64,000 bases of DNA. It comes from Labia minor (taxonomy: Eukaryota > Arthropoda > Insecta > Dermaptera > Spongiphoridae). The stretch covers positions 78,399,034 through 78,463,033 of the forward strand of contig OY720345.1 in NCBI GenBank assembly GCA_963082975.1, in the 5' to 3' direction. Below the pieces are notes generated by a model. It was not told the origin of the DNA. It worked only from the letters and a program-made list of their open reading frames with translations, and made no database searches. This document shows, one piece after another, positions 3,359 through 26,699 of the stretch (the stretch's first letter is position 1; each line of letters starts with the position of its first letter). The translations under genes and the position numbers were made by a program.

Positions 3359-4440
3359 TTAAACAGTATGTATTAATAGATGTTTATTTAAATCAGATTT
3401 CTTTGTAAATTTCTTTTTACAATAATTACATTCAAAGGGATTTTCACCTGAATGAATTAATAAATGTGTATTTAAATCAGATCTCCGATTAAATTTCTTT
3501 TTACAATAATTACATTCAAAAGGCCTTTCGCCGGTATGAATTAATATATGTCTATTTAAATCAGATTTCATATTAAATTTCTTTTTACAATAATTACACT
3601 CAAAAGGCTTTTCAGCTGTATGAATTAATAAATGTCTATTTAAATGTGATTTTAAATTAAATTTCTTTTCACAATAATTACATTCAAAAGGCTTTTCACT
3701 TGTATGAATTAATAAATGTGTATTTAAATGAGATTTCTTTTTAAATTTATTTTTACAATAATTACACTCAAAAGGCCTTTCGCCGGTATGAATTAAGAAA
3801 TGTCTATTTAAATCAGATTTCCCATTAAATTTCTTTTTACAATAATTACATTCAAAAGGCTTTTCAGCTGTATGAATTAATAAATGTCTATTTAAATGTG
3901 ATTTTAAATTAAATTTCTTTTCACAATAATTACATTCAAAAGGCTTTTCACTTGTATGAATTAATAAATGTCTATTTAAATCAAATTTCCGTTTAAATTT
4001 ATTTTTACAATAATTACACTCAAAAGGCTTTTCACCTGTATGAATAAATAGATGTCTAGTTAAATATGATTTTTGTTTAAATTTCTTTTTACAATGATTA
4101 CACTCAAAACACCTGTCTTCTGTTTTGTTTGAATCAGTATCTTCAAGTTTTTCGTCATGACTGTTTTCCTTGGAAAATTCGACAGTATCATTTCTGAGTT
4201 TTAATTTATTTTTTAAAATTGAAAATATTTGTTTGAAAATACATATTTTTAAATGTTTACATAAAAATTCCTCATTTATATAATTTGTGTAGCAATATTT
4301 ACAAGGATGTAAAGGACCTAAAACAATTATAAATATATTTAAAAATATAATACTAGTGAAAATAAACAATAATTTAGATGAACATAGAAATTACCTATAT
4401 ATATTGGATATTTTCTGTCTTCTTGTGAATAAAGATCCAT
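3359..4440 (-). CDS. C2H2 zinc-finger protein A (two exons, 9 fingers)
   Basis: Spliced CDS is exon 1 at 4395-4440 and exon 2 at 3359-4317, with a 77-bp GT-AG intron (4318-4394) in phase 1, giving 334 residues. Exon 1 encodes MDLYSQEDRKYPIYI, shared with four paralogs in this window. Exon 2 opens with a lone C-x2-C-x12-H-x3-C finger (CKYC...HLKIC), then a basic helix and an acidic linker. Nine tandem C2H2 fingers follow, joined mostly by HTGEKPF or HTSEKPF linkers and ending HTV. Such arrays normally bind DNA in the nucleus; target and partners are unknown. Fingers differ mainly at helix positions -1, +3 and +6. It is divergently oriented to gene B, with a foldback element between them. The exon 1 start is chosen because the same ATG and splice site recur in all paralogs. 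Confidence 0.85.
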
Positions 4441-4548
4441 TTTTAATTGATTAATATATTATCAATTACCAATTATATATAAGTTAATAAGAGTAATGTA
4501 TTAAATTTTTATTTTTATTGACATTATAAAATCACAGAGCATCAGTTA

Positions 4549-5055
4549 TCAGGCCCAGGGGCACAGGGGGTTGCAACACCGGGTGGACACGCAATGTTAA
4601 ATTCGTGAAACGGCGTTTGGCGCTGCTAAAAAGTGGCCCCTATATGAACTAATTGATGTAAAAAACCGGCCTGGCACCATTTTTAAAATCCATTTTGAAT
4701 CATTTGAATGAGAGGAGCGGGAGGAATGAAAAAATTATGAAATTTTTCAGTTAAGTGAAAAATTATTTATTTGGGGATAAGACCAACATTTCAGCAATTT
4801 TCTGAAAAAAAAATTATTTCTGAAATGTCAGTTTTAGCTCTAAATAAATAATTTTTCACTAAACTGAAAAATTTCATAATTTTTTCATTCCTCCCGCTCC
4901 TCTCATTCAAATGTTTCAAAATGAATTTTAAAAATGGCGCCAGGCCGGTTTTTTTACCTCAATTAGTTTATTTAAGGGACACTTTGAAGCAGCGCCAAAC
5001 GCCGTTTCAAGAATTTAACATTACGTGTCCACCTCCTGGCATACCCCTTCCTTAT
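4549..5055. mobile_element. Foldback element with long terminal inverted repeats
   Basis: The two halves are imperfect reverse complements of about 240 bp each. Matching landmarks are ACGGCGTTTGGCGCTGC (left) against GCAGCGCCAAACGCCGT (right), GAGCGGGAGGAATG against CATTCCTCCCGCTC, and GTGGACACG against CGTGTCCAC, around a centre near 4800. This is the structure of a foldback transposon or long-TIR MITE. It has no ORF. Exact ends and target duplication are unclear. It lies between the divergent zinc-finger genes A and B, within about 100 bp of both start codons. Confidence 0.75.
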
Positions 5056-5154
5056 AGATAGTCTGTGATCCCTTATGTCAATCAAAATCAAAATTTAAAA
5101 CGTTTATATTACTTATTACCTTATAATAATTGATAATAGATTATAGAATTAAAA

Positions 5155-6690
5155 ATGGATCTTTATTCCCAAGAAGACGGAAAATATCCAATATATATAG
5201 GTAATTTTTTTTTTCATCTAAATTATTGTTATTTTCACTAATATTATATTTTTAAATATATTTGTAATGATATTCATTATATTGATGTTTAAAATAGTTA
5301 GATAATAATTTAACTTAATCAAAATAAAATTGTTTTAGGTCCTTTATATCCTTGTTTACATTGCTACACAAATTTTATAAATGAGGAATTTTTATCTAAA
5401 CATTTAAAAAAATGTATTTTCAAACAAATACTTTCAATTTTAAAAAATAAGTTAAAACTCAAAAATGATACAGTCGAATATTCCAATGAAAACAATCATG
5501 ACGAAAAACATGAAGATACTGATTCAAACAATACAGAAGACAAGCATTTTGAATGTAATTATTGTAAAAAGAAATTTAAACAAAAATCACATTTAAATAA
5601 ACATTTATTAATTCATACAGGAGAAAAGCCTTTTGACTGTAATTATTGCAAAATTAAATTTAATCAGAAATCTGATTTAGATAAACATTTATTAATTCAT
5701 ACAGGTGAAAAGCCTTTTGAATGCAATCATTGTAAAAAGAAATTTAATCGGAAATCTGATTTAAATAGACATATATTAATTCATACAGGTGATAAGCCTT
5801 TTCAATGTAATTATTGTGAAAAGAAATTTAATTTGAAAAATAATTTATATAAACATATATTAATACATACAGGTGAAAAGCCTTTTGAATGTAATTATTG
5901 TGAAAAGAAATTTAATCAGAAACCCAATTTAGATAAACATATATTAATACATACAGGTGAAAAGCGTTTTGAATGTAATCATTGTAAAAAGAAATTTAAT
6001 CTGAAATCAAATTTAAACAAACATTTATTAATTCATACAGGAGAAAAGCCTTTTGACTGTAATTATTGTAAAAAGAAATTTATTGATAAATCACATTTAA
6101 ATCGACATATATTAATTCATACAGGTGAAAAGCCTTTTGAATGTAATTATTGTAAAAAGAAATTTAATCAGAAATCTGATTTAGATAAACATATATTAAC
6201 TCATACAGGCGAAAAGCCTTTTGATTGTAATTTTTGAAAAAAAGAAATTTAAACAAATATCTCATTTAAAAACACATTTATTAATTTATACAGGTGAAAA
6301 GCCTTTTGAATGTAATTATTGTAAAAAGAAATTTAATGATAAATCACATTTAAATAGACATATATTAATTCATACAGGCGAAAAACCTTTTGAATGTAAT
6401 TATTGTAAAAAGAAATTTAATCAGAAATCCAATTTAGATACACATATATTAATTCATACAGGTGAAAAGCAATTTAATCGGAAGTCTAATTTAAATACAC
6501 ACTTATTAACTTATACAGTTTAAAAGCTTTTTGAATGTAATTATTGTATAAATAAATTTAATTTTTAATCACATTTCAATTATTTATTTATTCATACAGG
6601 GAAAAAGCCTTTAGAGTGTAATTATTGTAAAACAAATTTAATCAGAAATCTGATTTCGAAATACATTTATTAATACAAAGTGTTTAAAAT
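5155..6690 (+). pseudogene. C2H2 zinc-finger gene B, truncated by a stop and frameshift
   Basis: Exon 1 is 5155-5200, the intron 5201-5338, and exon 2 is open from 5339 to a TGA at 6235-6237. The 314-residue product has the family N-terminus, the C2HC motif and eight complete fingers, and stops inside the ninth. Compared with gene C, the second zinc-binding Cys codon of that finger has become TGA and one extra A shifts the frame. The other frame then continues with further fingers (6238-6523), one half deleted, and decayed fingers run to about 6690. It could still make the eight-finger protein, but the tail shows it is decaying. The roughly 80-bp upstream region is closely similar to that of gene C. 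Confidence 0.75.
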
Positions 6691-7441
6691 ATTATCTTAA
6701 TAATGAAAACTATAGATTTTCTAAAATTATAGCATATATTATATATTTGATAGTCTTATATTTAAATTAATAAAAATCCGATTTAATTAACTTGGTATAT
6801 ATATATTTATATTAACTATTTTATTATTACTAATTTTTTATATATCCTGTATGTAACAATATAATTGTCAATTAATTTGTAAAATTTGAAAATAAATTTT
6901 TTAAATTAATATTTATATGTACGTGGCGGTGATTAGAATCGGAATCGCCGTGGAGGTTGGTTAATTAATTTGACTCTTTAGAGCGGGTTGTATGGGTATA
7001 TAATTTAATTATAATCAATTTATATAAATATAAACATTCTTTGTTGTAAATTCTTAATATTAATTTGTTTGTTTTCTTGTTAATAAATAAATTATGATTA
7101 ACTAACCCTTCTCATTAAATATATTTTTATCAAAGATCTTAATACTTTTCTTTAAATGTATATTATTTTTTGATTCATATAAAAATAAATTAAAAGAAAG
7201 CAAAAAATACATAATATAAAATGAAATTATTATATTTATTATATAAACAAATATAATTAGAATTTAAATAATAGAACATAATTTTTCTAAATTCGCAGTG
7301 GCACCTCTTGTGGGTACAAGGAGTACTAACACCACTAACTCACTCACCACAGACAATCCTTGATGTCAATAAAATCCAAATTTAAAACGTTTATATTACT
7401 TATTACCTTATAATAATTGATAATAGATTATAGAATTAAAA
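6691..7441. other. Intergenic DNA with the conserved 5' flank of gene C
   Basis: Mostly AT-rich, with no gene seen. A short GC-richer patch lies near 6920-6965. The last 80 bp (about 7360-7441) nearly repeats the region just upstream of gene B (5075-5154), so promoter sequence was duplicated with the gene. Confidence 0.5.
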
Positions 7442-8677
7442 ATGGATCTTTATTCACAAGAAGACAGAAAATATCCAATACATATAGGTAATATTAATTT
7501 TTAAAATAGTTAGATAATAATTTAACATAATCAAAATAAAATTGTTTTAGGTCCTTTATATCCTTGTTTACATTGTTACACAAATTTTATAAATGAGGAA
7601 TTTTTATCTAAACATTTAAAAATATGTATTACCAAACAAATATTTTCAATTTTAAAAAATAAATTAAAACTCAAAAATTATACAGTCGAATATTCCAATA
7701 AAAACAGTCATGACGAAAAACTTGAAGATACTAATTCAAACAATACAGAAGACAGGTGTTTTGACTGTAATTATTGTAAAATTAAATTTAATCAGAAATC
7801 TGATTTAGATAAACATTTATTAATTCATACAGGTGAAAAGCTTTTTGAATGTATACATTGTAAAAAGAAATTTAATCGGAAATCTGCTTTAAATAGACAT
7901 TTATCAATTCATACACGCGAAAAGCTTTTTGAATGTATACTTTGTAAAAAGAAATTTAATCGGAAATCTGCTTTAAATAGACATTTCTTAATTCATACAG
8001 GTGAAAAGCCTTTTGAATGTAATTATTGTAAAAAGAAATTTAATCGGAAGTCTGATTTAGATAAACATTTATTAATTCATACAGGTGAAAAGCCTTTTGA
8101 ATGTAATTATTGTAAAAAGAAATTTATAGATAAATCACATTTAAATAGACATAAATTAATTCATACGGGCGAAAAGCCTTTTGAATGTACATATTGTAAA
8201 AAGAAATTTAATCAGAAATTCAAATTAGTTGCACATGAATTAATTCATACAGGAGAAAAGCCTTTTGAATGTAATTATTGTAAAAAGAAATTTAGTTGGA
8301 AATCTGATTTAGATAAACATATATTAACTCATACAGGCGAAAAGCCTTTTGATTGTAATTTTTGTAAAAAGAAATTTAAACAAATATCACATTTAAAAAC
8401 ACATTTATTAATTCATACAGGTGAAAAGCCTTTTGAATGTAATTATTGTAAAAAGAAATTTAATGATAAATCACATTTAAATAGACATATATTAATTCAT
8501 ACAGGCGAAAAACCTTTTGAATGTAACTATTGTAAAAAGAAATTTAATACAAAATCATATTTAAAAACACATTTATTAATTCATACAGGTGAAATGCCTT
8601 TTGAATGTAATTATTGTAAAAAGAAATTTAACCAAAAATCACATTTAAATGGACATTTATTAACTCATATGGTTTGA
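7442..8677 (+). CDS. C2H2 zinc-finger protein C (two exons, 11 fingers)
   Basis: Spliced CDS is 7442-7487 plus 7551-8677, with a 63-bp GT-AG intron in phase 1, giving 390 residues and an uninterrupted frame. It is easily missed because exon 2 has no internal Met until its end. The N-terminus is MDLYSQEDRKYPIHI, followed by the family C2HC motif (CLHC...HLKIC), an acidic linker and eleven C2H2 fingers. Recognition positions -1/+3/+6 run Q-D-K, R-A-R, R-A-R, R-D-K, D-H-R, Q-K-A, W-D-K, Q-H-T, D-H-R, T-Y-T, Q-H-G. Linkers are mostly HTGEKPF; finger 2 ends in HTREKLF. Likely a nuclear DNA-binding protein; the target is unknown. Same strand and upstream sequence as gene B, so probably a tandem duplicate. 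Confidence 0.85.
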
Positions 8678-9143
8678 AATATAGTCTTATTAATGAAGAA
8701 TAAAGATTTTCTTTGATTCTTTCTTTGATTATAGCTTATATTATATACTTTATCGTTTTATATTTAAATCAATAAAAATCTGATTTATTTAACTTAGTAT
8801 ATTTATATTAACTATTTTATTTAGTCCATTAATAACTAAATTATTACTAATTTTCTAATTACTTTTAAGAATCTTATCCTTTTATTATTCTTGTGCGTTT
8901 ATTTGCTCTTTTTTTTATACAAGTCTAAAGTATGTCAAAATATTCTTTCTTTTTACCATTCTAAAATTATAATTATATTTATAAATAAAAAAAGAAATTT
9001 TATAAAAATTCCTTTTTAATTCATACATGTGAATTTTATTATCGTATAAAATTTATTGTATATAATATATTTGATATTGTTACCCCACCACTCTGCTCAG
9101 TTTTGCGTCAGCCCTACCGACGTGAACAGGGAATATCTTATAT
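8678..9143. other. 3' flank of gene C, duplicated beside genes D and E
   Basis: The stretch at about 8830-8990 (spaced motifs TTAAGAATCTTATCC, TTATTCTTGTGCG, CTTTTTACCATTCTAAAA) recurs in reverse orientation at about 22040-22200, 25060-25240 and 26985-27115. Duplication units therefore include this 3' flank. No gene seen. Confidence 0.6.
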
Positions 9144-9567
9144 CAGAGGTTCTTAAACTGTGGTCCGCGGACCCTTGGGGGTCCGCAAAGCCATCGTACT
9201 TGTGCACGAGAAAATGATGAGTCAGTTAAAACTTTATTTAATATAAAAGGAGCGATGGCATGGCTTTGTGAGGAAACAGATCAAATATCCAAATTTAACG
9301 AAATGTGCAAGACAACTATTGCTACCGTTTCCATCTTCATATTTAGCTGAATTTTCTTTCTTCAATATTATAATTTCTAATAAAATGTGTTCTACAATAT
9401 GCAAAAAAATCGTTATTCACCAATCACTGTTATCCTTGTTCTTATGAGATCGTAAGCCAGATATTAACTAATAAAATGACGTAAAGTACCTAAAGTTGGG
9501 ATGGGGTCCGTCAAAAAAAAATTTTACAAGTGGGGGTCCGCGGAGTACATAAGTTTAAGAACCTCTG
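9144..9567. mobile_element. hAT-type MITE
   Basis: Terminal inverted repeats begin CAGAGGTTCTTAAACTGTG and end GTTTAAGAACCTCTG. The 8-bp flanks are TCTTATAT (9136-9143) and TCTTACAT (9568-9575), matching 7 of 8. The 424-bp element has no transposase. TIR type and 8-bp duplication fit the hAT superfamily. Confidence 0.85.
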
Positions 9568-11790: not shown

Positions 11791-12405
11791 GATTCCTTTT
11801 GATAATAATTTTGATGAGATAAGCCTCTTTACTGCATGATAACAGGCGTTTCCCGATTTCTACCTCGATTTAAATTCTTCTTAAATATTATTATCCTTCT
11901 ACATATTCAAATTCTACATTTTGTATATTAAGATTTTGTTACTAAATATTTTTTCTTATCACTATTAATTTCAATCTGAATTAGAAGAAAATTATATATT
12001 GCCTCCTCTTCCAGCCCATTTACCTATCCAGGCATCTTAATTTCTTAACACTCCGTTTTTTTTAAATTTAAAATAGAAGGAGATAAATAGTTTTAAATTA
12101 TATTCGAATGGTCTATTATATTCTATATATCAGTATTTTTTCTGAATTTAATACCAAGTTGATTTTCAAAATGTTCCATTCGTTATCCATATGATTGATT
12201 ACATGTGTTAAAATTTAAAAAAATTCAAATATTCTAATTTTTAAATTTTTATACAATTGAATATTATTTTTTATTAATATCATATCAAAAAAGAGAATTT
12301 ATTAAAAATTAAAAATAAAAAAAGAAGCCTATAAATAAAAAAATATATTAGAATACAATAATTTTGATTTAAAACAAATTTAAAAATAAATACTCAATAT
12401 AAATA

Positions 12406-13578
12406 AGTTGACCTGTGGCCAGGTCCCAACCGACCGACGGTTTGAAGTAAATTAATTTCCAGCTACAGAAACAATTTCAAATAATTTTAATATATCTATT
12501 AATGTAATAAAAACAGATATGGATAGAACATAAATATTTTTAATTTTATTTTATTTATAATATATAGCTGAAGTAGCCGGCGTTACCCGAGGCTGTGACG
12601 CAGGGCCGCGACGTGGGTGCAAAGCGCCCGTGTGCAAATTTGTAAAAAGCGCCCCCTTTATCAATAGAACAATAAAAGCTTACCACTTAGTTGCTATTGA
12701 CACTAATTTTCACTTTATGCACAATGCTCTAATTCACAGAGTTTGAATATTTCTAAATAAATTAATAAATTTAAAAATATAGTCAGAATACATAAAATAA
12801 AAAAGAATGGTCAGTTTGGCGCCCGTGGGCAGCGCCCACCTTGCACACATGCACGCCGCGGCCCTGCCGTGACGTCATGAAGGGCTGGGTGACGTCATAT
12901 AATTTTAAATTAAGAAAAACATAATGAAGATGATTTTTCCCGAGGATAAAACCAATACAGTCGTGGTGATATGTAAAAAAATCTCCTCATGTGAAATTTG
13001 GTGTGAAAATAACCCTTCCCTTCCTATTGTCGATCGCTAATACTACCACTTCCGGTTTCCGGATTTGTACCAAAAGTTGATCAATTGTTCCCACTGATGC
13101 ATTAAGTAAATATACCAAATTTCATCAAAATCGGTTGAGCCGTTCAGGCTGTACACATCTATACGGACAGACGGAAGGACGGACGGACGCACGGACGCAT
13201 CATGCTAAAAATACTTTTTTCTGTTAAGAAAATGCATGATTCGTGGTGATATATAAAAAAATCTCCTCATGTGAAATTTGGTGTGAAAATAACCCTTCCC
13301 TTCCTATCGTCGATCGCTAATACTACCACTTCCGGTTTCCGGATTTGCACCAAAAGTTGATCAATTCATCCCACTGATGCATTAAGTAAATATACCAAAT
13401 CTCATCAAAATCGGTTGAGCCGTTCAGGCTGTACACATCTATACGGACGGACAGACATCATGCTAAAAATACTTTTTTCTGTTGAGAAAATGCATGATTC
13501 GAGGAGATATGTAAAAATCTTCACATGTGAAATTTGGTATGAAAACAATACCTCCCTTACTATCGTCTCGGTCGGTAA
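12406..13578 (+). repeat. Interspersed repeat R1, copy 1 (with internal duplication)
   Basis: Begins ATAAGTTGACCTGTGGCCAGG (hairpin GACCTG-tggc-CAGGTC), then AACCGACCGACGGTT, and ends near ATCGTCGGTCGGTAA, so ACCGACCGACG recurs inverted at the far end. Two TGACGTCA sites lie near 12870-12900. The downstream module (TTCGTGGTGATAT to the CGGACGGACGG microsatellite) is present twice, about 12960-13230 and 13240-13500. A hAT MITE has inserted in it. No ORF; class unknown. Confidence 0.75.
12601..12866. mobile_element. hAT-type MITE inserted in repeat R1
   Basis: Ends CAGGGCCGCG and CGCGGCCCTG are inverted repeats; flanks are CTGTGACG (12593-12600) and CCGTGACG (12867-12874), 7 of 8 matching. Other R1 copies show the uninterrupted site, which fixes the boundaries. 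266 bp, no ORF. Confidence 0.85.
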
Positions 13579-13846
13579 AAAGACATAAATTTAAAACATC
13601 TTGAATCGGAGCAAGCGTACGGTTACTTGAAAACGACTGCAGAATAAGCAGTTGAAACGTTGTACAATTATCTTAATTTAATAAATAATTTTATACAAAT
13701 AATGTGGTCTTTTAATAAAAATTCTCTTAATAATTAAAACATCTTGTTTATATCATTTGTCTAAAAAATCATATTTTAATTTTATATAACCAAGAAATCA
13801 TTTTTGCACTTAAAATATATTTAATAATTGAAACAAAAACAAAAAT

Positions 13847-14494
13847 AAGTTGACCTGTGGCCAGGTCCGAACCGACCGACGGTTTGAAGTAAATTAATTT
13901 CCAGCTACAGAAACAATTTCAAATAATTTTAATATATCCATTAATGTAATAAAAAACAGATATGGATACATAAATAATAAATATAAACATTTTTAATTTT
14001 ATTTTATTTATAATATATATGCAAGACCAGGCTGTGACGTCATGCATGGCTGGATGACGTCATATAATTTTAAATCAAGAAAAAACTAATAAATATGATT
14101 TTTTTCGAGGATAAAACCAATACAAAATGCATGATTCGTGGTGATATATAAAAAAATCTCCTTTGGTGTGAAAATAACCCTTTCCTTCCTATCGTCGATC
14201 GCTAATACTACCACTTCCGGTTTCCGGAATTGCACCAAAAGTTGATCAATTCATCCCACTGATGCATTAAGTAAATATACCAAATTTCATCAAAATCGGT
14301 TGAGCCGTTCAGGCTGTACACATCTATACGGACGGACAGACGGACGGACAGACGGACGGACGGACAGACGGACAGACATCATGCTAAAAATACTTTTTTC
14401 TGTTTAGAAAATGCATGATTCGTGGAGATATGTAAAAATCTCCACATGTGAAATTTGGTGTGAAAACAATACCTCCCTTACTATCGTCGGTCGG
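13847..14494 (+). repeat. Interspersed repeat R1, copy 2
   Basis: Starts at the same ATAAGTTGACC hairpin and ends ATCGTCGGTCGGTAA. It keeps the paired TGACGTCA sites (about 14035-14063). The GACGGACAGACGGAC microsatellite is expanded near 14330-14380. Confidence 0.75.
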
Positions 14495-15249
14495 TAATAA
14501 TATAATTTAGTCATTTTAATTGACGTTTTGAAAATATTTTTGTATTCATAAAAGTTTAAAAATAATATATTCTGTTTCTTTAAGCTTTCACTTTCAAATA
14601 GAAAAGAGGAAATATTCCAATATATAGAAATAATAAATAAAAATTAAGTTAAATATGATCTATATATTTTATTAAATAAATTTAAATGACAACTTTTAGA
14701 ATAAATTATTTAATTTAATTGATATTTGAATATTAGAATTTAAAATAAAAAGTGAAATATAATAATTTTTAAATTCTCAGCAATATGCAGACAAAAACCT
14801 TTTTTATATATATAGATAGTCGACGCTGGGGACGGCAATATGGGTTTTTCCAAGAAGGAAGAGAAAGTTACCTCCCCTCCGAGGCCCTAGTAGGGATTAA
14901 TTTAATTATTTATTATATTTCAAAGGAATATTTTAATATCATTTTAAATGAATGAATGAATGAAAATTCAAATTTTATATATAGTTTTTTATATATGTTT
15001 ACTTATGCAGAAAAAATTAATTGACATAATTATTATTTTAATAAAATACAATTTAATAATAAAATTTAATTTAATAAAATACAATTTAATAATAAAATTT
15101 AATTTAATAAAATACAATTTAATAATAAAATTTAATTTAATAAAATAAAATAATTTAATAAAATTTAATATTTTTAAAAATATTTATAAAAAATATTTAT
15201 AAAAATTAATAAATTTGTAAAAAAAATATATAATACTTTAAAAAAAAAA
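14495..15249. repeat. AT-rich DNA with repeat R3 (copy 1) and a 33-bp minisatellite
   Basis: About 14575-14820 matches about 20255-20460 and 20780-20840 (landmarks TTCAAATAGAAAAGA, ATGCAGACAAAAACC and a TATATATAGAT end). A GC-richer patch of unknown origin is at about 14820-14900. At 15038-15150 a 33-bp unit (ATACAATTTAATAATAAAAT...) repeats about three times; the apparent short ORF there is an artefact of the repeat. Confidence 0.6.
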
Positions 15250-15340: not shown

Positions 15341-15502
15341 CTATTAGAATTTATATAGAAGTCAAATTGATTCATTGTAATAAAATTTAAACAAATAAAA
15401 ATTTTCACTTTCTTAATTTATATAAATTTCAATTTACACTGATTGTGAGTGATACGCTTTGCCAATACTCTGAATAATTTGTGTATAGAAATATTGAATG
15501 TT

Positions 15503-15920
15503 TGTGGGACATTTTCGAGGACGAGTAGAGTTACTTGAGGTTTGCACTTTTCACAATATCACTGTAGAGTCTTGGCGTAACGAATGAATCTCTCGTGTCC
15601 TCCGTCGGCTTTATATAGCTGGTCGTAGTCCACGTGGACTGTCCCGGACCGGCCGTCGTCGATGGAATTAGCTCTGATTGGTCCGGGTCGAGTTTGCTTG
15701 CTCCGGGTTGGCTCGTGATGGACTCCACGTGGAGTATGCTCGCTCCAGGTTGGTTGTTGGACTCCACGTGGACTCTGCTTGCTCCGGATTGGTTCGCGCC
15801 TGACTCCACGTGGACTCTGCTCGTTCCGGATAGGCTATCGGTGGTAATGCCGGTCCCTGATTGGCTCGTGCTCGCCTCCGCTTGAGGTTTTGTGTGGTGG
15901 CTACTGCTTCGCTTGCCACA
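15503..15920 (-). repeat. Gypsy 3' LTR
   Basis: 418 bp, bounded by TGTGG...CCACA in the element sense. Four CCACGTGG palindromes lie in it, three of them within tandem units of about 42 bp. A polypurine tract (minus-strand AAAAGGGGGGGAGTGG, 15921-15936) adjoins it. Confidence 0.92.
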
Positions 15921-15988
15921 CCACTCCCCCCCTTTTGAGAACTTTGCTTCCTTTTGCTCGTATACGTATTCCCTATTTTTTGGAGACT

Positions 15989-18900
15989 TCACCTTCCGCC
16001 CGGATCGCGTTGTTCTCTCGGGGCTTGTTGTGGTGCCTTTTGATTCTGCTGAATCTTGATCTCAGATTTCGGGAGTGTCTGTTGAGGTGAGTGTTGAAGG
16101 ATTGGTACACTTGGGGTCTCAAAGTCCTCCAGTGTGAATGCCGGCTTGACTCGGTCGATGGAGACTCTCACTTCCCTGAGATTAACCTGTATCGTAATGG
16201 TTTTTTCGTCCTGAGACAAGACTTTATGTGGGCCCGTGTATGGTGCTGCCAATGTCCCACGTAGCGCGTCCTGCCTGAGGAAAACGTGTGTCGAATCTCG
16301 CAGAGCTCTGTGTATGAAACTGCCCCTTTTTGTATGTTGCGAAGTTTGCGTTGGTCTCAGTTTGCTAATGCACCTTCTTAGGTTCTCAATTAGCGCCGAG
16401 TGAGACTCTGGATTCCCGTTACTACAGAAAAACTCTCCAGGGAGTCGAAGGGGTTCACCGTAGACCAATTCTGCCGAGGAAGCGTTTATGTCTTCCTTGA
16501 ATGAGGCTCTTATTCCCAGAAGGACGAGAGGTAAGGCACTACACCACCCTTGGTCTGCGTGGCACATGATAGCTGCTTTTAAGCTTCTGTGGAAGCGTTC
16601 AACAAGACCATTAGAGGCTGGGTGATAAGGTGTTGTTCTCGATCTCCTAAACCCGCATAGACGTCCCAAAGCAGCGAACAATTTTGATTCGAATTGTCTT
16701 CCTTGATCTGTGGTAATTTGCTCAGGGCATCCAAATCTACTTATCCACCCAGAGAGTAGAGCCTCGGCTACTGTCTCAGCCGAAAGGTCGGAGATGGGAA
16801 CGACCTCTGGCCAGCGACTGAAACGATCGACCGCTGTCAGAGAGTAACTGTATCCCCGCGAGATAGGGAGTGGTCCGATAAGGTCAATGTGTACGTGTAG
16901 GAATCGTGCTGCTGGAATTGGGAACTGTCCTATTGGTGATACAGTGTGTCTCCCCACCTTGCTACGTTGGCATTCCAGGCACTTCTTTGCCCATTCGCGG
17001 CAATCCCTCTTAATGCCAGGCCAGACAAAACGTTCGGCTGTTAATCGTGCTGATGCAGCCGCTCCAGGGTGCCCCAGACAGTGTAGAGACCATAAAGTCT
17101 GAGGTCGAAACTCTGTGGTCACAAATGGGCGCGGTTTTCCAGTAGAAGTGTCGCAGTATAAGGTGGTGTCCGATCCTGGGATCTGTACTTTCTCCAAAAT
17201 TAGACTTGTCTTGGATCTCTCGTTGAGCAGCATTTTCAGTTCAGCGTCACTCGTTTGGGAATCCGCGAGCATCCTTATGTCTATTGGAGATGTAATTGCG
17301 TTTACCCTCGAAAAAGCGTCAGCCACGACGTTGTCTTCACCCGATACGTGTCTTATATCCGTCGTAAATTCGCTGATGTAGTTCAGGTGATTACTCTGTC
17401 TCGGTGAACGATGCTCCTTATTGTTGGTGAAAGCGTTTATCAAGGGCTTATGGTCAGTAAAAATAATGAAGTGCCTGCCTTCAATCATATGTCTGAAATG
17501 CCTAACAGCCTCATATACTGCCAATAATTCTCTATCGTATGCGCTGTATTTGGCTTGTGTCGGGCTCATTTTCTTTGAAAAGAAAGCCAGGGGTCTCCAC
17601 TCACCTTCTACAAACTGCTGAAGGACTGCTCCCATGGCTGTCAGCGAGGCATCAGTTGTTATGGAGGTGGGCGCTGAAGCGTCCGGGTGAACCAGTAATG
17701 TAGCTTTGCCGAGATTTTCTTTTGCCGCCTCGAAAGCTTTGATCCGTTTTTCGGTCCAAATGACTGTCGCTTTTCCTTTGATGTTGGGTCCCGATAGCGC
17801 CTCGTTTAATGGAGCCTGGGCCTCCGCTGCATGCGGGAGGAATCTTCTGTAAAAATTCAACATACCCAAAAACCGGCGTAACTCCTTGGCAGTTGTGGGT
17901 CTGGGGAATTTCTTCAGGTCTGCGACTCTATCCGGGAGTGGAAGAGAACCCTTTCTCGAGATGTGATATCCGAGGAAAGTGATCGTCTCAGCCTCGAAGA
18001 CACATTTATCCAAATTTATAACCAGACCGTATTTTACAAGACGCTCGAAAAGGCTCCGCAGGTGACTTCTATGTTTCTTAATGTCGGAAGAAAATACCAA
18101 AATATCATCAATGTAGGCAAAACAGAAAGGTAATCCGTGAAGTGCTTCATCAATGAACCTCTGGAAAGTTTGAGCGGCGTTCCGCAGACCAAAGGCCATA
18201 AACGGGAATTCGAATAGGCCGAATGGTGTTGTAATCGCCGTTTTTGGTATGTCCTCCGGTGCTACTGGGATTTGATGGTACGCCCGAACGAGGTCGATCT
18301 TTGAGAATACGGTAGCGCCCCGGAGTTCGTGTGCGTAGTCCAAGTTATGTCGGACTGGATATCGATCCGGTATTGTTCTGGAATTCAGAGTGCGGTAGTC
18401 TCCACAGGGTCTCCAACCGTCTTTCTTAGGGACAATATGGAGTGGAGAAGACCAAGGACTTGTAGATGGGCGTGCCGTTCCGTCTCGGATCATGTTGTCA
18501 AACTCCTCTTTGGCAACCTTCAACCGGTCCGGGGGTAAACGGCGGGGTCGACAGAATGTTGGAGGACCGGCCGTTGTGAGGATGTGATGTTGAGTGTTAT
18601 GTTTAATTTTTCGTGGAGTGCCTGATGGCCGTGTCAACTCTGGAAATTCCTCAAGGAGTACAGGAGTCTTGATTGAGCTGATAACTGGGTCTGGAACCAT
18701 TTCCGCGTCGTCATCATTGTTCCTGCTGCTGGCCAGTAACCTTTTGTTCCGGCAATCGACAAGGAGATTGAAAAAACCAAGAAAATCACTACCTATGATC
18801 GGTGTATCGACGCTGGCGATTGTGAATTTCCAAGGGAACCGTTGCCGTAAGCCGAGATCGAGGGTTTTTGTCTCGTAACCAAACGTCCGTATCATAGTTC

Positions 18901-19114
18901 CATTGGCTGCCGTTAATGTGCGTGAGGTTGGTTTCAGATCAGCCTTCAAGTACTTCCTGGGGTAAATTGACACATCGGACCCTGTATCAATTAGGAAACT
19001 TTTCCCTGATGACTTGTCGTTAATAAAGAAGCGGGAGTGTATTGACGAACAACCGGTACCTCCCACTACCGGCTGTTGTTTGCGTTTTCCGCCCATGTGC
19101 AAGGAGTGGTACAC
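15989..19114 (-). CDS. pol: Gypsy pol polyprotein (protease, RT, RNase H, integrase)
   Basis: 1041 residues and open throughout. In order: aspartic protease LIDTGSDVS (about residue 43), reverse transcriptase with [12 protein letters not shown] and the catalytic YIDD (about 333), RNase H beginning [10 protein letters not shown] (about 485), and an integrase zinc finger with paired His and CLEC cysteines (about 675-715). The integrase core Asp-Asp-Glu lie near 741 (HIDLIG), 803 (TTDQGRQF) and 838 (NGLVERFH). All catalytic residues I can identify are present. It overlaps gag by 49 bp in another frame, so expression probably needs ribosomal frameshifting; the Met at 19114 is only the first Met of the frame. 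The integrase would insert cDNA with the observed 4-bp duplication. Confidence 0.93.
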
Positions 19115-19833
19115 TTGCGGGCGTCTTTGCCAAACCTTTTATGGTAAAAACAAACAGTCAAGGGCTGGTCTTTTGTTGACCTTAACTGTCGGATCTCTTT
19201 CTTTAATTGCTCAATCTCTTCCCGGAAAGAGGTACGCTCGTTCGCGTATGATGACTGTTTTTCCTCCACTAGCGGAGGATTCTTTCTCGTTGCCCATACT
19301 GCCATACCGTTGTCGTCCACGATTTGATCCGCCACTTCCGCGATTTCGTCGAGGCGCTTTCCAGTCAGAGTAAATACGATGGTTCGTGCTTCTGGGGGAA
19401 GTTGACGAGTCCATGCCTCGCGGAGGGCTCCCTCAGATGCTTTGGGATCGAGGTTCCGAAGGTGGCGAAGGAACTGTGACGGCCTGCGGTCCCCTCGTTC
19501 TTCTGTAAAAAATCGCTTCACCATCGAGGCCTCGCTCGCTCCAAGGCGTTGGATGAGTTGCTTCTTCAGAGCTGAATAAGGATTCCTTGGGGGGGCCTTT
19601 ATGATGTCATCAACCTGCTCCATGACGTCTTCTTCGAGAGCTCCTACCACATGGTCAAATCTCGTTTGCTCGGACGTGATGGCATTGGCAGAGAATTGAG
19701 CTTCAATTCTTGCGAACCATAAGTCAGGTCGTCTTGTCCAAAATGCTGGTATTTTAATTGATACCCGTCCGACGGCTGCCTCACCTGCCGTTGTGCTCGT
19801 ATTGCTGCCATCGGGGTCACCATTGTGGGACAT
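19066..19833 (-). CDS. gag: Gypsy gag protein with CHCC box
   Basis: 255 residues. The ATG at 19833 lies in the last ten bases of the 5' LTR, so translation would start inside the LTR and run through the primer site. The capsid-like region (about residues 20-170) contains [17 protein letters not shown] and [20 protein letters not shown] glutamate/lysine-rich helix (about 195-220) precedes C-x2-H-x9-C-x3-C near the C-terminus, replacing the usual CCHC knuckle. It packages element RNA. The frame is open. Confidence 0.88.
19805..19822 (-). promoter_or_regulatory. Gypsy primer-binding site, tRNA-Trp type
   Basis: One base after the 5' LTR the minus strand reads TGGTGACCCCGATG. This matches the complement of the 3' end of animal tRNA-Trp at nearly every position. 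Confidence 0.75.
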
Positions 19834-20241
19834 TTTCGAGGACGAGTAGAGTTACTTGAGGTTTGCACTTTTCACAATATCACTGTAGAGTCTTGGCGTA
19901 ACGAATGAATCTCTCGTGTCCTCCGTCGGCTTTATATAGCTGGTCGTAGTCCACGTGGACTGTCCCGGACCGGCCGTCGTCGATGGAATTAGCGCTGATT
20001 GGTCCGGGTCGAGTTTGCTTGCTCCGGGTTGGCTCGTGATGGACTCCACGTGGAGTATGCTCGCTCCAGGTTGGTTGTTGGACTCCACGTGGACTCTGCT
20101 TGCTCCGGATTGGTTCGCGCCTGACTCCACGTGGACTCTGCTCGTTCCGGATAGGCTATCGGTGGTAATGCCGGTCCCTGATTGGCTCGAGCTCGCCTCC
20201 GCTTGAGGTTTTGTGTGGTGGCTACTGCTTCGCTTGCCACA
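19824..20241 (-). repeat. Gypsy 5' LTR
   Basis: 418 bp, with two visible differences from the 3' LTR. It holds the same CACGTG-bearing tandem units and a GCTTTATATAGC segment near 19930 that could act as a TATA box. Confidence 0.92.
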
Positions 20242-20249
20242 TGTTCTTA

Positions 20250-20845: not shown

Positions 20846-21129
20846 TTCTACTTCCATATTTTCATTTATAGGCCCTACATAACAGATTTGCATTGCCATT
20901 TTTTTCAAAAAATAGTTATAATAAAACTACAATAGTATTTTGTATGATTTTTATTTGTATTTATATTTGTAGTGTGTATACTAATTTTAAAATTTTATTT
21001 ATAATGATTCAAAAGTATCAGATCTTTGCGACCCCCTTTCAGTAGTCTCGCGACCCCCAGGGGGGTCGCGACCCACAGTTTAAGAAGCCCTGGTTTAGAC
21101 GAATGGGATTTGTGAAAAAATTATTTTTT

Positions 21130-21366
21130 TAAAACTTTTATTGAAAAAGGATGGAAGGCTGTGAGAAATGTTTATAGTATTAAATATTTGGGGGAATCTC
21201 TTATTGATTAGGCACTGATAAAAGAAAAATTAATTTTAGAAATTGCAAATAACAACCCAGTATTTACCATAATAAATTTGAATATGATGGGATTGCCTTT
21301 GAAAATACAAAATGAATTAGATCGAGAGGAAATTATGACTATTGAAAATTTTTTTGATCAACTGTC
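21130..21366 (+). pseudogene. Coding-like fragment of unknown origin
   Basis: A plus-strand frame reads FIEKGWKAVRNVYSIKYLGE, then SLID, a stop, then ALIKEKLILEIANNNPVF, NLNMMGLPLKIQ and EIMTIENFFDQ, with a single internal stop in about 78 codons. Composition and spacing look like a real protein segment rather than chance, but I do not recognise it. It lies between the right end of hAT2 and a LINE tail, so it could be an exon, a retrocopy or LINE-carried sequence. Confidence 0.35.
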
Positions 21367-21369
21367 GAC

Positions 21370-21492
21370 GTGAGAGAGATGGGACAGGGTAATAGTTAGA
21401 TGGTTATAGCTCAGAATAGGGACACTCGGGGGTACAGGGGGCGGAGCCCCCGTCTAGGTGTGGAGAGCGCTGAAGGCGCTCGGAGCAGCTAG
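21370..21492 (+). pseudogene. LINE 3' terminus ending in a GC hairpin
   Basis: The frame AQNRDTRGYRGRSPRLGVES, then AEGARSS, ends at the TAG of a terminal CTAG and is followed by TATATATA. The hairpin GAGCGC-tgaag-GCGCTC lies inside it. Same repeat as 11107-11177. Confidence 0.55.
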
Positions 21493-21635
21493 AATATATA
21501 TAAATGTTACCAAATATCAAATTTGACACCAATAAACTAACACGAAGTGGCTCTTTATCAATACCAAGTTTACACATTCTAAATATTCATTAACAACTCT
21601 TTATACCTATTTATATGCGGGAAAGTCTAGGGGAG

Positions 21636-21672
21636 GACACTCCCGCTTTTTAGTTTATATATAAAACAATTA
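21636..21672. repeat. Hairpin GCGGGA...TCCCGC
   Basis: A GCGGGA/TCCCGC stem encloses AAAGTCTAGGGGAGGACAC. A diverged version (GCGAGATAGTCGAGAGGAGACACTCC...) occurs at 10718-10752. Possible element terminus. Confidence 0.4.
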
Positions 21673-21674
21673 TT

Positions 21675-21835
21675 ACCAAGGACGCGGTGGGTGGATAATG
21701 TGGGAAGGGACGCAAGAGAGATGAGAGAGGGTAGGGATTGGAGGGTTGTGGCACAGAATAGCCACACTTGGAGGTGTGGTTGCTACGGCCAAGAACTTTC
21801 GAGTTCCGCAGAGCCACAGATATAGATAGATATGA
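21675..21835 (+). pseudogene. 3' end of an RTE/CR1-type LINE, second copy
   Basis: The plus strand reads RWVDNVGRDAREMREGRDWR, then VVAQNSHTW, a Cys-rich turn and GQELSSSAEPQI, then a stop and a GATAGATATG tail. This is the standard C-terminus of RTE/CR1-like LINEs, better preserved than the inverted copy at 11340-11790. Confidence 0.75.
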
Positions 21836-22333
21836 TTTTTAGTTTATTAAATTTATAATCTGAATGTTTGGCTTACATCATATAAAAGATATTGCCCGTT
21901 CCCCTCTGAAGTGCCATCGTGACCACAGAATTAAGCAGAGTGGAGAGGGTTACAATATAAAATAATTTATTTACAATAAATTTAATACAATAATAAAATT
22001 CTCGTGTAAGAATTAAAAATGAATTTTTATAAAAAATTTTTTTTATTAGAATATATTGGTAAAAAGAAAGAATCTATTGACATATTTTACGATTTAAATA
22101 AAGAACAGAAAGAATGAAAATAAATAAAAAATGGATAATATTCTTAAAAGTAATTAGAAAATGTAATAAGAAAATTAGTAATAATTTAGTTATTTATTGG
22201 ACAAATAAAGTAGTTAATGTAAATACTAAGTTAAATAAAACAGAGTATTAATGATTTAAATATAAAACTATAAAGTATATAATATAAGCTAAAATCAAAG
22301 AAAATCTTTAGTCTTCATTAATAAGAGTATATT
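21836..22333. other. Duplicated 3' flank of zinc-finger gene D
   Basis: AT-rich, with no gene. About 22040-22320 matches the 3' flanks of genes C and E. Confidence 0.55.
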
Positions 22334-23715
22334 TCAAACCGTATGTATTAATAAATGTCTATTTAAATCAGATTTCCGATTAAATTTCTTTTTACAATAA
22401 TTACATTCAAAAGGCTTTTCACCTGTATGAGTTAATAAATGTCCATTTAAATGTGATTTTTGGTTAAATTTCTTTTTACAATAATTACATTCAAAAGGCT
22501 TTTCGCCTGTATGAATTAATAAATGTTTATCTAAATCAGATTTCCCATTAAATTTCTTTTCACAATAATCACATTCAAAAGGCTTTTCGCCTGTATGAAT
22601 TAATATATGTGTTTTTAAATGTGATTTATCAATAAATTTCTTTTTACAATAATTACATTCAAAAGGCCTTTCACCTGTATGAATTAATAAATGTACATTT
22701 AAATGTGATTTTTGGTTAAATTTCTTTTTACAATAATTACATTCAAAAGGCTTTTCGCCTGTATGAATTAATATATGTTTATCTAAATCAGATTTCCGAT
22801 TAAATTTCCTTTTACAATAATCACACTCAAAGGTCCCTTCACCTGTATGAATTAATATATGTCTATTTAAATCAGATTTCCCATTAAATTTCTTTTCACA
22901 AAAATTACACATAAAAGGCTTTTCACCTGTATGAATTAATAAATGTGTATTTAAAGCAGATTTCTGATTAAATTTCTTTTTACAATAATTACATTCAAAG
23001 GGCTTTTCGCCTGTATGAATTAATATATGTCTATTTAAATGTGGTTTCCGATTAAATTTCTTTTTACAAAAATTGCATTCAAAAGGCTTTTCGCCAGTAT
23101 GAATTAATATATGTCTATTTAAATGTGATTTATCATTAAATTTCTTTTTACAATGATTACATTCAAAAGGCCTTTCACCTGTATGAATTAATATATGTGT
23201 ATCTAAATTAGATTTCTGGTTAAATTTCTTTTTACAATAATTACATTCAAAAGGCTTTTCACCTGTATGAATTAATAAATGTCCATTTAAATGTGATTTT
23301 TGTTTAAATTTCTTTTTACAATAATTACATTCAAAACGCCTGTCTTCTGTTTTGTTAGAATCATTATCTTCAAGTTTTTCGTCATGATGGTTTTTCTTGG
23401 AATAATCAAGTGTATTATTTTTGAGTTTTAATTTATTTTTTAAAATTGAAAATATTTGTTTGTAAATACATATTTTTAAATGTTTAGATAAAAATTCCTC
23501 ATTTATAAAATTAGTGTAGCAATGTAAACAAGAAAATAAAGGACCTAAAACAATTTTATTTTCATTATTTTAAATCATTATTTTAAAAATCAATATAAAT
23601 AAATATCATTACAAATATATTTAAAAATATAATATTAGTGAAAATAACTATAATGAACATAAAAATCACCTATATATATTGGATATTTTCTTTCTTCTTG
23701 TGAATAAAGATCCAT
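22334..23715 (-). CDS. C2H2 zinc-finger protein D (two exons, 12 fingers)
   Basis: Spliced CDS is 23670-23715 plus 22334-23544, with a 125-bp GT-AG intron in phase 1, giving 418 residues and a fully open frame. The product has MDLYSQEERKYPIYI, the family C2HC motif (CLHC...HLKIC), a basic helix, an acidic linker (KKNHHDEKLEDNDSNKTEDR) and twelve C2H2 fingers ending HTV. Positions -1/+3/+6 vary between fingers (Q-H-G, Q-N-T, D-H-R, R-H-R, Q-A-T, G-D-R, R-D-K, Q-H-V, D-H-T, G-D-K, Q-H-G, R-D-R) while the scaffold is almost constant. Probably a nuclear DNA-binding protein of unknown target. Its flanks are duplicated around gene E on the same strand. Confidence 0.87.
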
Positions 23716-24144
23716 TTTTAATTGTTTAATCTATTATCAATTATAAATTATATATAAGGTAATAAGTAATATAAAAGTATTAAAAGTTTGATTTTTATTG
23801 ACATTCAAAATAATAACCAATAATCTTTAAGTCAAGAACCAAGCCTTGGACAGCCTTAGAATTGTTTTGAAACCGTGTTTTTTGCTTGGAGTAGCCACTT
23901 GATGGCGCTACAAGCGACAACGGAGACTCTTCAGGCGCTCTGATATCAACATAATATAAATATAAAAATATAAACATAAATATAAAAACCATTTTGTTAA
24001 ATTCATCTTGTTTCAACTTTTACAGCCATCATTTAATTATTATTAATGTTATATTTCAATATTTCACGATTAATATAATCAATTGTAATGCAATATGAAA
24101 AATATATATTCTATAAAATTTTATTGCTTTCTTTTTACCTGTCA
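23716..24144. other. Duplicated 5' flank of gene D
   Basis: About 23760-23990 closely matches 26760-26960 upstream of gene E (landmarks GACAGCCTTAGAATTG, TGCTTGGAGTAGCCACTTGA). Probably promoter-containing. No ORF that I believe. Confidence 0.6.
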
Positions 24145-24836
24145 TTAACAACTACATAGTGGGTTCGTCAAATTTATTCGTACCTTTCTTTGGTTCGCGA
24201 GGAAAAAAAGGTTGGGAAACACTGCATTAGAGAAAAGATAAAGATCTGTCTTTGCCTCTAAAGATATGCCACCCCATATCATCACTGATCCTCCTCCAAA
24301 CTGAACACTATGGGCCATGTTACATTGTGCGTAACGCTCGCCGGGTCTTCTGTAAACAAAAAGACGGCCATCAGGTCCAAATAAAATGAATTTGGACTCA
24401 TCTGAAAACAACATGTTTTTCCAGTAAGACTATCCAGTGGCTGTATTTTTTGGCAAAGGCAAGGCGGGCTTTTCGGTTTTCCACAGAGAGTAATGGTCCT
24501 GTCGATCGTTTTCTGGGATGTAAATTTGCCTGAGCTAATCTTCTTCTAACTGTATGAGCACTTATAGAAACATGTCTCACTGTACGGAGGATCTGAGCGA
24601 TCTCTGGAGCAGTTGCGTTGCGATTCCGCAACGAATTTATGACAATAAATCGGTCATCAATCGGTGTTGTTGATCCTTGACTTCTGGAACAACTACCAGT
24701 CTCTCGATATCTTGTGATAGCTCTACGGACGGTGGCTTCATGCAAACCTAAATTGCGAGCCGCAAAGCGTATACTTTTTCCATCATCCACTAATGCTAAC
24801 GCTCGAGCCACTTATTCTGGTGTAATCATTTTTTTT
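24145..24836 (-). pseudogene. Tc1/mariner transposase relic
   Basis: On the minus strand MITPE, a stop, then the paired helix-turn-helix DNA-binding region (IRFAARNLGLHEATVRRAIT, later HTVRRRLAQANLHPRK) of a Tc1-like transposase. A frameshift near 24410 breaks the YSHW/KNMLFSDESKF junction. The second piece has the first catalytic Asp (SDESKF) and the MIWGGIS motif, then degenerates. The remaining catalytic Asp and Glu are absent. Dead copy, inserted between zinc-finger genes D and E. Confidence 0.85.
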
Positions 24837-25388
24837 TAATTATTCCAAGCCAGACGATGTATTCCAGAAAGAATTTATATCGTAAATGAGATAAATTTTA
24901 TTCAAAAGCAATAAAATTTAATAAAAATGTTAATTGAAACTTTTGAAATTTGATCATCGATTTACTTAATTTTGAATAGATTTAATTTCATAGCATAAAA
25001 TTCTTTATAAAGCTATTACAAATTATCATTATTTAGATAAATTTTAATATAAATAAGATTTAAAGAATAAAAAAAAAGAAAGGGGTAAAAATAAAAATGG
25101 AATTTTAGAATGGTAAAATGAAGGAATATTTAGACATACTTTAGACTTATAAATAAAGAGGAAATAAACGAACAAGAATAATAAAAGGATAAGATTCTTA
25201 AAAGTAATTAGAAAATGAAATAAGAAAATTAGTAATAATTTAGTTATTAATGGAACAAATAAAATATTTAAATAAATATACTATGTTATATAAATCAGAT
25301 TTTTATTGATTTAAATATAAATATATAAAGATAATAATATAAGCTATAATCATAGAAAATGTTTATTCTTCATTAATAAGAGTATATT
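24837..25388. other. 3' flank of gene E
   Basis: AT-rich. About 25060-25380 is homologous to the flanks of genes C and D. No gene seen. Confidence 0.55.
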
Positions 25389-26699
25389 TCAAACCGTATG
25401 TATTAATAAATGTGTATCTAAATTAGATTTCTGATTGAATTTCTTTTTACTATAATTACATTTAAAAGGCCTTTCGCCAGTATGAATTAAAAACTGTCCA
25501 TTTAAATGTGATTTTTGGTTAAATTTCTTTTTTCAATAATTACAATGAAAAGGCTTTTCACCTGTATGAATTAATAAATGTGTTTTTAAATTTGATTTAG
25601 TATTAAATTTCTTTTTACAATAATTGCATTCAAAAGGCCTTTCACCAGTATGAATTAATATATGTGTATCTAAATTAGATTTCTGGTTAAATTTCTTTTT
25701 ACAATAATTACATTCAAAAGGCTTTTCACCTGTATGAATTAATAAATGTTTATTTAAATCAGATTTCCGATTAAATTTCTTTTCACAAAAATTACACACA
25801 AAAGGCTTTTCACCTGTATGAATTAATAAATGTGTTTTTAAATTTGATTTAGTATTACATTTCTTTTTGCAATAATTGCATTCAAAAGGCTTTTCACCTG
25901 TATGAATTAATATATGTCTATTTAAATGTGATTTATCTATAAATTTCTTTTTACAATAATTACATACAAAAGGCTTTTCACCTGTATGATTTAATAAATG
26001 TGTATTTAAAGCAGATTTCTGATTAAATTTCTTTTTACAATAATTACATTCAAAAGGCTTTTCACCTGTATGAATTAATAAATGTTTATCTAAATCAGAT
26101 TTCCGATTAAATTTCTTTTTACAATAATTGCATTCAAAAGGCTTTTCACCTGTATGAATTAATATATGTGTTTTTAAAGCAGATTTCCAATTAAATTTCT
26201 GTTTACAATGTATACATTCAAAATGCTTTTCACCTGTATGAATCAATAAATGTTTCTCTATATCAGATTTCAAATTAAATTTCTTTTTACAATGATTACA
26301 TTGAAAACATCTGTCTTCTGTATTGTTTGAATTAGTATCTTCAATTTTTTCCTCATGGCTGTTTTCATTTGAATATTCGACTGTATCATTTTTGAGTTTT
26401 AATTTATTTTTTAAAATTGAAAATATTTGTTTGTAAATACATATTTTTAAATGTTTAGATAAAAATTCCTCGTTTATAAAATTTGTGTAGCAATATACAC
26501 AAGGATATAAAGGACCTAAAACAATTTTATTTTCATTATGTTAAATTATTATCTAACTATTTTAAAAATTAATATAATGAATATCATTACAAATATATTT
26601 AAAAATATAATATTAGTGAAAATAACTATAATTTAGATGAACATAAAAATCACCCATATATATTGGATATTTTCTCTCTTCTTGTGAATAAAGATCCAT
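25389..26699 (-). pseudogene. C2H2 zinc-finger gene E with a premature stop
   Basis: Exon 1 is 26654-26699 (MDLYSQEERKYPIYM), the intron 26516-26653 (138 bp), and exon 2 is open from 26515 to TGA at 25533-25535. The 342-residue product has the C2HC motif and nine fingers. The stop replaces the second zinc-binding Cys codon of finger 10. Beyond it the frame continues in phase to the ancestral HTV-stop at 25389, but finger 10 has His changed to Gln and finger 11 has Cys changed to Ser, as expected once the tail is untranslated. Finger 6 has a Cys in place of its core Phe. The nine-finger protein could still be made. Confidence 0.78.

Follow-up and report, generated by a model that had tools for sequence, protein, structure and literature searches.

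How can an array of zinc fingers be kept nearly uniform while its members come to differ at the residues that contact DNA? The question is raised by a stretch of 64,000 nucleotides (nt) from contig OY720345.1 of Labia minor (the window, meaning the whole stretch that was analyzed), in which five paralogous genes, here called A to E, encode long arrays of C2H2 fingers. A preliminary description had counted about 49 fingers in five paralogs between positions 3359 and 26699; a C2H2 pattern scan of both strands of the window found 51, all in five arrays within that interval, which is bounded by gene A's stop codon (3359) and gene E's ATG (26699). Gene A has 9 fingers, B has 10 (8 in frame and 2 past a frame change), C has 11, D has 12 and E has 9. 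As judged from the sequence, the cluster is probably a young, locally duplicated poly-C2H2 family of sequence-specific DNA-binding proteins that has been shaped by short-tract exchange and by selection on the contact residues. Gene conversion and unequal exchange, acting often and over short tracts, would hold the framework similar both inside a gene and from gene to gene, and selection would keep or make residues -1, +3 and +6 of the recognition helix different, so that sister genes would gain different predicted binding sites.

The 51 fingers have the form C-X2-C-X12-H-X3-H with TGEKP-type linkers, as in poly-C2H2 (Kruppel-type) proteins. The top Pfam matches of the gene A exon-2 open reading frame (ORF) were zf-H2C2_2 and zf-C2H2, and cross-matches of its fingers to other zinc-binding and unrelated models were not accepted as domains. 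PDB matches of gene D (E 1e-25 or better) were headed by the DNA-binding arrays ZNF568, CTCF, Aart and PRDM9. We infer that the genes are expressed and that their proteins bind DNA. In a limited literature search, no paper was found that prints the framework string CNYCKKKF.

Amino-acid entropy across the 51 fingers was highest at -1 (2.69 bits), +3 (2.10) and +6 (2.02). Next came +5 at 1.76 and helix position 8 at 1.41; the remaining non-ligand positions lay below 1.2 bits, save the last linker residue (1.47, with 3 of its 51 values past a stop codon). Across the 1275 finger pairs, the proportion of replacement differences (pN) was highest at -1, +6 and +3 among the 28 sites, and the triplet {-1,+3,+6} gave the highest pN contrast among all 3276 site triplets. 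The early claim that differences concentrate at these three positions is therefore borne out in their rank, although +5 and +8 vary too. Variation is thus found at three of the four classical contacts; the fourth, +2, is nearly fixed (Ser in 46/51).

In any array, every finger has a DNA triplet of its own to read. A contig search for relatives of the finger genes returned four loci in bacterial metagenome-assembled genome records, whose generic fingers (42-52% identity) served solely as a control; the viral contigs searched contained none. An unrelated control array of seven fingers (L001) likewise peaks in entropy at -1, +3 and +6, which makes contact variation among fingers a generic feature; of the other fetched control loci, L002 and L004 had zero fingers by a stricter pattern and L003 had two. 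What is particular to this cluster is its homogenized scaffold and a contact excess over silent change; that excess, the low conservation of finger position among the young sister genes and a duplication in gene A are the informative parts.

The excess over silent change was measured in a tree-free manner and on trees. At -1, +3 and +6, pN divided by the overall proportion of silent differences (pS) was 2.06 (bootstrap 1.79-2.37), or 1.73 with +2 included, and for the remaining 24 codons (outside -1, +2, +3 and +6) it was 0.39. Codon-rate tests on two IQ-TREE trees gave dN/dS ratios (omega) of 2.13 and 1.94 at -1, +3 and +6 versus 0.41 and 0.44 at the 24 other sites, so that the refuting condition set in the preliminary description, a contact dN/dS no higher than that of the scaffold, does not hold. 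Relative to silent change across the whole domain, replacement at the contacts was also faster (p 4e-4 on one tree and 9e-12 on the other). Because conversion breaks the tree, codon models were not relied on as sole proof of selection; the extract of PMC3890296 gives the same warning, that conversion undermines tree-based codon models.

Counts of changes along a minimum spanning tree of the 51 fingers gave the same picture, with replacement changes divided 51:95 between the four contact codons and the other codons, and silent changes 5:49 (Fisher p 1.8e-4). In gene A, a 252-bp internal tandem duplication (3515..4018, minus strand; fingers 2-4 and 5-7) has accumulated 11 nt differences between its copies, in two silent and six replacement codons, and five of those six lie at -1, +2, +3 or +6 (hypergeometric p 1.4e-4, for a case picked post hoc). 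Simulations were run with neutral contact codons, a constrained framework and homogenizing conversion for 48 full fingers, and samples were matched on pS. The settings counted were neutral only, without a positive control, and successive samples of one run are non-independent; with this in mind, 5 of 588 matched samples overall reached a ratio as high as that observed. Near stationarity, the observed 2.12 was reached in 2/529 (0/190, 2/203 and 0/136); in another run it was reached in 3 of 41, all in one setting (3/30), and a run averaging above the observed pS gave 0/18 matched samples at a ratio of at least 2.0. Given the contact excess over silent change, the gene A duplication and the neutral simulations, the contact residues appear to be under selection to differ.

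The framework, by contrast with the contacts, is homogenized. Over the first 63 nt of the finger, mean identity was 85.9-86.5% across three classes of pairs, in line with a scaffold described earlier as near-constant even at the DNA level. The scale of the underlying exchange can be read from linkage. Mean r2 between variable bases (squared correlation) fell from 0.073 at 3-8 bp to 0.037 at 9-20 bp, 0.025 at 21-40 bp and 0.017 beyond, with a permutation background of 0.021 that was reached within roughly 20-40 bp. The trend was significant by codon permutation (p 0.001 for the 48 full fingers), held when near-duplicates were removed (37 fingers left, p 0.001; 28 left, p 0.003) and was present at non-contact sites alone (p 0.019). 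Bases 1-20 bp apart across the junction of neighboring fingers were also linked (r2 0.104 over 19 site pairs vs 0.024 expected), and those farther apart than 20 bp across the junction were uncorrelated. Linkage is set by DNA distance and not by finger membership. Since it drops to background within roughly 20-40 bp, exchange acts below the scale of the finger, and whole-finger shuffling as the sole process is ruled out by the decay within fingers together with the linkage across their boundaries. Near-identical fingers whose array positions do not correspond, together with mosaic relationships, support the unequal exchange proposed in the preliminary description, but its whole-finger version is too simple.

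The strongest associations joined the third base of the -1 codon to that of the +2 serine codon (r2 0.65) and to the first base of the +3 codon (0.47). The commonest -1/+2/+3 codon sets among the 51 fingers were CGG-TCT-GAT (7), GAT-TCA-CAT (7) and CAA-TCA-CAT (6). We read this as short-tract conversion that would often transfer the recognition-helix core in one piece. Epistatic selection may also contribute to the linkage in this part of the helix, but it is not enough to cause the decay, because the trend is also seen at non-contact sites. The synonymous choices CAA/CAG at -1 and TCA/TCT at the +2 serine co-vary with the +3 residue. A more speculative version, which we hold to be rather doubtful, is that exchange of about 20 bp moves the helix core (-1 to +3) as a cassette from one finger or gene to another, and that selection favors new combinations against invading elements. 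If true, the helix-core cassette would be a combinatorial generator of specificity, as opposed to point mutation or whole-finger shuffling. In either form, sub-finger linkage decay offers a concrete and testable view of how arrays make new specificities.

The age of the genes sets these results in context. Introns differ by 3-11% between genes (pairs with at least 55 aligned bases; the A-C pair, with 3 aligned bases only, was set aside). Mean finger identity was 86.5% in register and 85.9% out of register, and in-register fingers diverge more than introns do. Relationships change along the genes: the 5' flank beyond -120 puts A beside B (0.08) and D beside E (0.14), whereas C is nearest D in fingers 7-9 (0.07) and nearest E in the 3' flank (0.07). 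Eight between-gene finger pairs are at most 2 nt apart (three compared over 63 nt, the remainder over 84), and 6 of the 8 occupy non-matching array positions, as expected from the earlier remark that finger types recur in different orders. We read these patterns as young duplicates whose arrays would have been reshuffled and converted since duplication.

The five genes share a common plan, as predicted by aligning the 5' sides of the paralogs and by GT-AG boundaries: a 46-nt exon 1 whose product starts MDLYSQE, a GT-AG intron of 63-138 nt, and a large exon 2. Exon 2 opens with a conserved 71-residue region, equal in length in all genes up to finger 1, that carries a CCHC-like C-X2-C-X12-H-X3-C motif and an acidic linker; 8-12 in-frame fingers follow, mostly with TGEKP linkers. 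The predicted fold of this region together with finger 1 was poor (mean predicted local distance difference test score, pLDDT, 56.7). Gene A is on the minus strand, with exon 1 at 4395..4440 (46 nt, ATG at 4440, encoding MDLYSQEDRKYPIYI plus a split Gly codon) and exon 2 at 3359..4317 (the N-terminal region with its CCHC-like motif, then 9 fingers), intact to its stop (TV*). Gene B, on the plus strand, has exon 1 at 5155..5200, exon 2 at 5339..6237 (N-terminal region and 8 fingers, up to a first stop, TGA) and a continuation in another frame at 6238..6460 with two canonical fingers, so that the array is disrupted; its finger 9 (at 6311) is identical to finger 9 of C over 84 nt. Gene C, also on the plus strand (exon 1, 7442..7487; exon 2, 7551..8677), has 11 fingers and is intact to its stop (MV*). 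Genes D and E lie in tandem on the minus strand, separated by a broken Tc1-like element: D (exon 1, 23670..23715; exon 2, 22334..23544) has 12 fingers and is intact to its stop (TV*), and E (exon 1, 26654..26699; exon 2, 25533..26515) has 9 fingers, a TGA inside the tenth that ends the frame, and two degenerate fingers after it.

A TGA replaces the second-cysteine TGT of a finger in both B (6235-6237) and E (25533-25535), in different fingers but in each case beside a run of A; recurrent mutation, spread by conversion or an assembly error may account for this. The 5' regions of A and B form a head-to-head palindrome (4326..5268) that is 83% self-complementary. Upstream of E, a copy of the distal 3' flank (26972..27116, minus strand; 93% match to 25086-25230) is likely the remnant of a lost tandem copy.

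Several observations weigh against selection on the contacts, or against a functional cluster. Tested against silent change at the contact codons themselves, contact omega was borderline (p 0.082 on one tree, 0.054 on the other); with +2 included omega was 1.76 and 0.87, neither different from 1. Strict positive selection (omega >1) at the contacts is therefore borderline. Recombination leaves any tree of the fingers approximate. When only spanning-tree edges of at most 3 nt were taken, the contact share was 4/15 for replacement versus 1/13 for silent changes (p 0.33). The N-terminal region is under weak constraint (pS 0.107, pN 0.079, pN/pS 0.73). With a frame change behind finger 8 in B and a stop within finger 10 in E, two of the five genes may be decaying. 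Some positional memory persists, as the nearest finger has the same index for 11.2 of 51 fingers versus 4.5 expected (p 0.0045). Finally, predicted motifs showed no enrichment over finger-order permutations in three long terminal repeat (LTR) retroelements of the window (6/6 tests), nor in the rest of the window (2/2).

The leading alternative, although we consider it unlikely, is that the differences between fingers are maintained and not newly made: each finger reads its own triplet, purifying selection holds the contacts, and conversion homogenizes the rest. The residual positional memory and the entropy peaks of the unrelated array are what this would produce, and fingers that share a contact triple are closer in their scaffolds (2.6 vs 5.3 nt). 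Held contacts should nevertheless agree between equivalent fingers of sister genes, and fingers of equal index were identical at -1, +3 and +6 in only 11-41% of comparisons over ten gene pairs, though introns differ by just 3-11%. Contact pN was 0.40 in register, nearly the out-of-register value of 0.43, and the recent duplication in A has already changed at five contact codons. The diversification of the contacts is, we infer, probably adaptive and not a preservation of old differences.

A decaying cluster with relaxed constraint would also yield variable contacts, which would then be neutral, and the likeness of the framework would come from recent duplication and conversion. The disruption of B and E, the N-terminal ratio, the borderline omega and the one simulation setting in which 3 of 30 matched neutral samples attained the observed ratio all point in this direction. 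We judge this improbable: A, C and D remain open to their common terminal motif over 334, 390 and 418 residues, the 24 non-contact codons are constrained, and nearer stationarity neutral contacts hardly ever matched the observed ratio.

A direct arms race, in which the arrays were selected to bind and silence the LTR elements of the window, had been suggested at the outset, and three such elements are present. A gypsy-like element (15502-20241, 50% G+C) has 419-bp LTRs, a 4-bp target duplication that fits if the LTR starts at 15503, and an ORF at 15989-19114 with reverse transcriptase, RNase H and integrase domains (Pfam). A Pao-like element (57396-63581) has 869-bp LTRs, ACGAC on both flanks and its coding sequence in two overlapping ORFs, with Pao peptidase and DUF1759 (Pfam) at 59646-62312. 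The third (30241-37503) has 434-bp LTRs. In each of the three the LTR pair differs by two mismatches, which indicates recent activity and would suit an arms race; such activity is context and not evidence of targeting.

Binding sites were predicted with a simple recognition code, which makes them a weak test of targets; according to the extract of PMC10547256, the motifs predicted for human KZNFs agreed with experiment in 11 of 236 cases. The specified bases of the predicted sites are 66-86% G+C for A-D and 44% for E, and the window is 28.7% G+C (22.9-31.7% in 15 of 16 4-kb bins, 49.3% in the bin of the gypsy-like element). Among 63 sub-arrays, scanned with 60 shuffles (p floor 0.016), the share at p<=0.05 was 11% in the 30.2-37.5 kb element, 0% in that at 15.5-20.2 kb, 2% in the Pao-like element and 3-5% in three controls. 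The three best printed matches in the 30.2-37.5 kb element all came from array A, which exceeded shuffles there and gave p 0.04 against its own finger-order permutations, but they would not survive correction for 63 sub-arrays. They also sit in a GC-rich block (31100-31399, 52-78% per 100 bp) of an otherwise AT-rich element, and shuffles of local composition gave p 0.025-0.105, uncorrected for 63 sub-arrays and 6 regions. With this one weak lead, with the absence of motif enrichment noted above, and because targeting needs no genomic proximity, the arms race finds no support here, one with these particular elements seems improbable, and any repeat targets of the arrays remain putative.

An origin of the finger genes as cargo or derivatives of a mobile element is very improbable. 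They do occur as inverted and tandem copies among transposons, but each of the five retains its intron, so none of them is a retrocopy. The five units also lack a shared 5' boundary, since homology beyond -120 is common only to A/B and to D/E, and the broken Tc1-like element between D and E (24109-24926; Tc3-type transposase domain at 24398-24811, Pfam) has 22-bp inverted repeats (91%; 24109-24130 and 24905-24926) that exclude both genes.

Other features of the window were also recorded. Its retroelements are of animal types, and these types together with the short introns suggest an animal, probably an arthropod. Further retroelement remains include DUF1759 fragments and RNase H similarity below cut-off at 37617-38126 and 1465-2019. 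A dispersed repeat family occurs at 12362-14499, 29153-29821 and 39083-39348 with about 85-98% identity between places. A satellite-like tandem array (39585-40677) has a period of 162 bp and 6.7 copies, and related repeats with a 125-bp period lie about 5 kb away (45243-45632). An open ORF at 42773-44068 (431 residues) had no Pfam match up to E 0.01; its start looks F-box/LRR-like. Rfam at the gathering threshold and ARAGORN gave zero matches in the window.

How this cluster is to be classed among known poly-zinc-finger (ZNF) families depends in part on its N-terminal domains. KRAB, ZAD and PR/SET had no match in Pfam scans of the gene A exon-2 ORF and of the N-termini of A, B and D, and given their absence from these scanned parts the cluster was not filed under KRAB-ZNF, ZAD-ZNF or PRDM9; a KRAB domain may lie on a remote upstream exon outside them. 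No family scored above cut-off in the scans of the three N-termini, in which the FiNZ profile was not run by name, and the only matches were weak C2H2-type ones, in B (residues 19-40, best E 0.069). Across 99 exon-2 columns, C and E are 78-79% identical to the scanned gene A.

In organization, the nearest likeness is to the insect ZF271-like (APEZ) genes of pea aphid and Oncopeltus, described in the extract of PMC6444547 as tandem clusters (there 4-8 genes) with long varied arrays, penta-peptide linkers, disrupted members and fingers only. The cluster has the same features, with five genes in tandem or inverted array, B and E disrupted, and fingers only in the scanned parts of A, B and D. The same extract reports that repeat content is uncorrelated with expansion within Hemiptera. 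Drosophila ZAD-ZNF genes are likewise dynamic poly-C2H2 genes, some of them positively selected, but there selection falls mainly in the linker, and in three genes it is seen in the fingers (PMC7655104, in extract), and no ZAD was found in the scanned parts here. The portion of PMC2604467 consulted describes fly and mosquito expansions without positive selection.

In mode of evolution, the resemblance is to vertebrate systems. Mammalian KRAB-ZNF genes are likewise poly-finger paralogs, and the sites under positive selection in them cluster at -1, 3 and 6 (PMC2604467, in the same portion), although their codeml signal is far stronger and no KRAB was found in the scanned parts here. PRDM9 is, in the extract of PMC3890296, a coding minisatellite homogenized by duplication and conversion from which the contact codons escape, as the contact codons of the present arrays do; it is one polymorphic locus with PR/SET, whereas here there are five paralogs and PR/SET was not found in the scanned parts. 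Zebrafish FiNZ-ZNF genes are also young paralogs, with dN/dS >1 enriched at base contacts in two of seven clades and a role against LTR elements, according to the extract of PMC10547256. A contact excess on a homogenized frame matches the published signatures of KRAB-ZNF and PRDM9, the likeness first noted in the preliminary description, and that of FiNZ-ZNF: the cluster evolves as they do, and the pattern itself is already published for them. By analogy with metazoan poly-ZNF families, heterochromatin or transposon control would be the most likely role of these genes, a suggestion that we offer tentatively. Contact-focused diversification has been documented in vertebrate poly-ZNF genes, and a family with a vertebrate-like signature but no KRAB in the scanned parts would bear on the generality of transposon-driven ZNF evolution in animals, for which PMC10547256, in the extract cited, argues.

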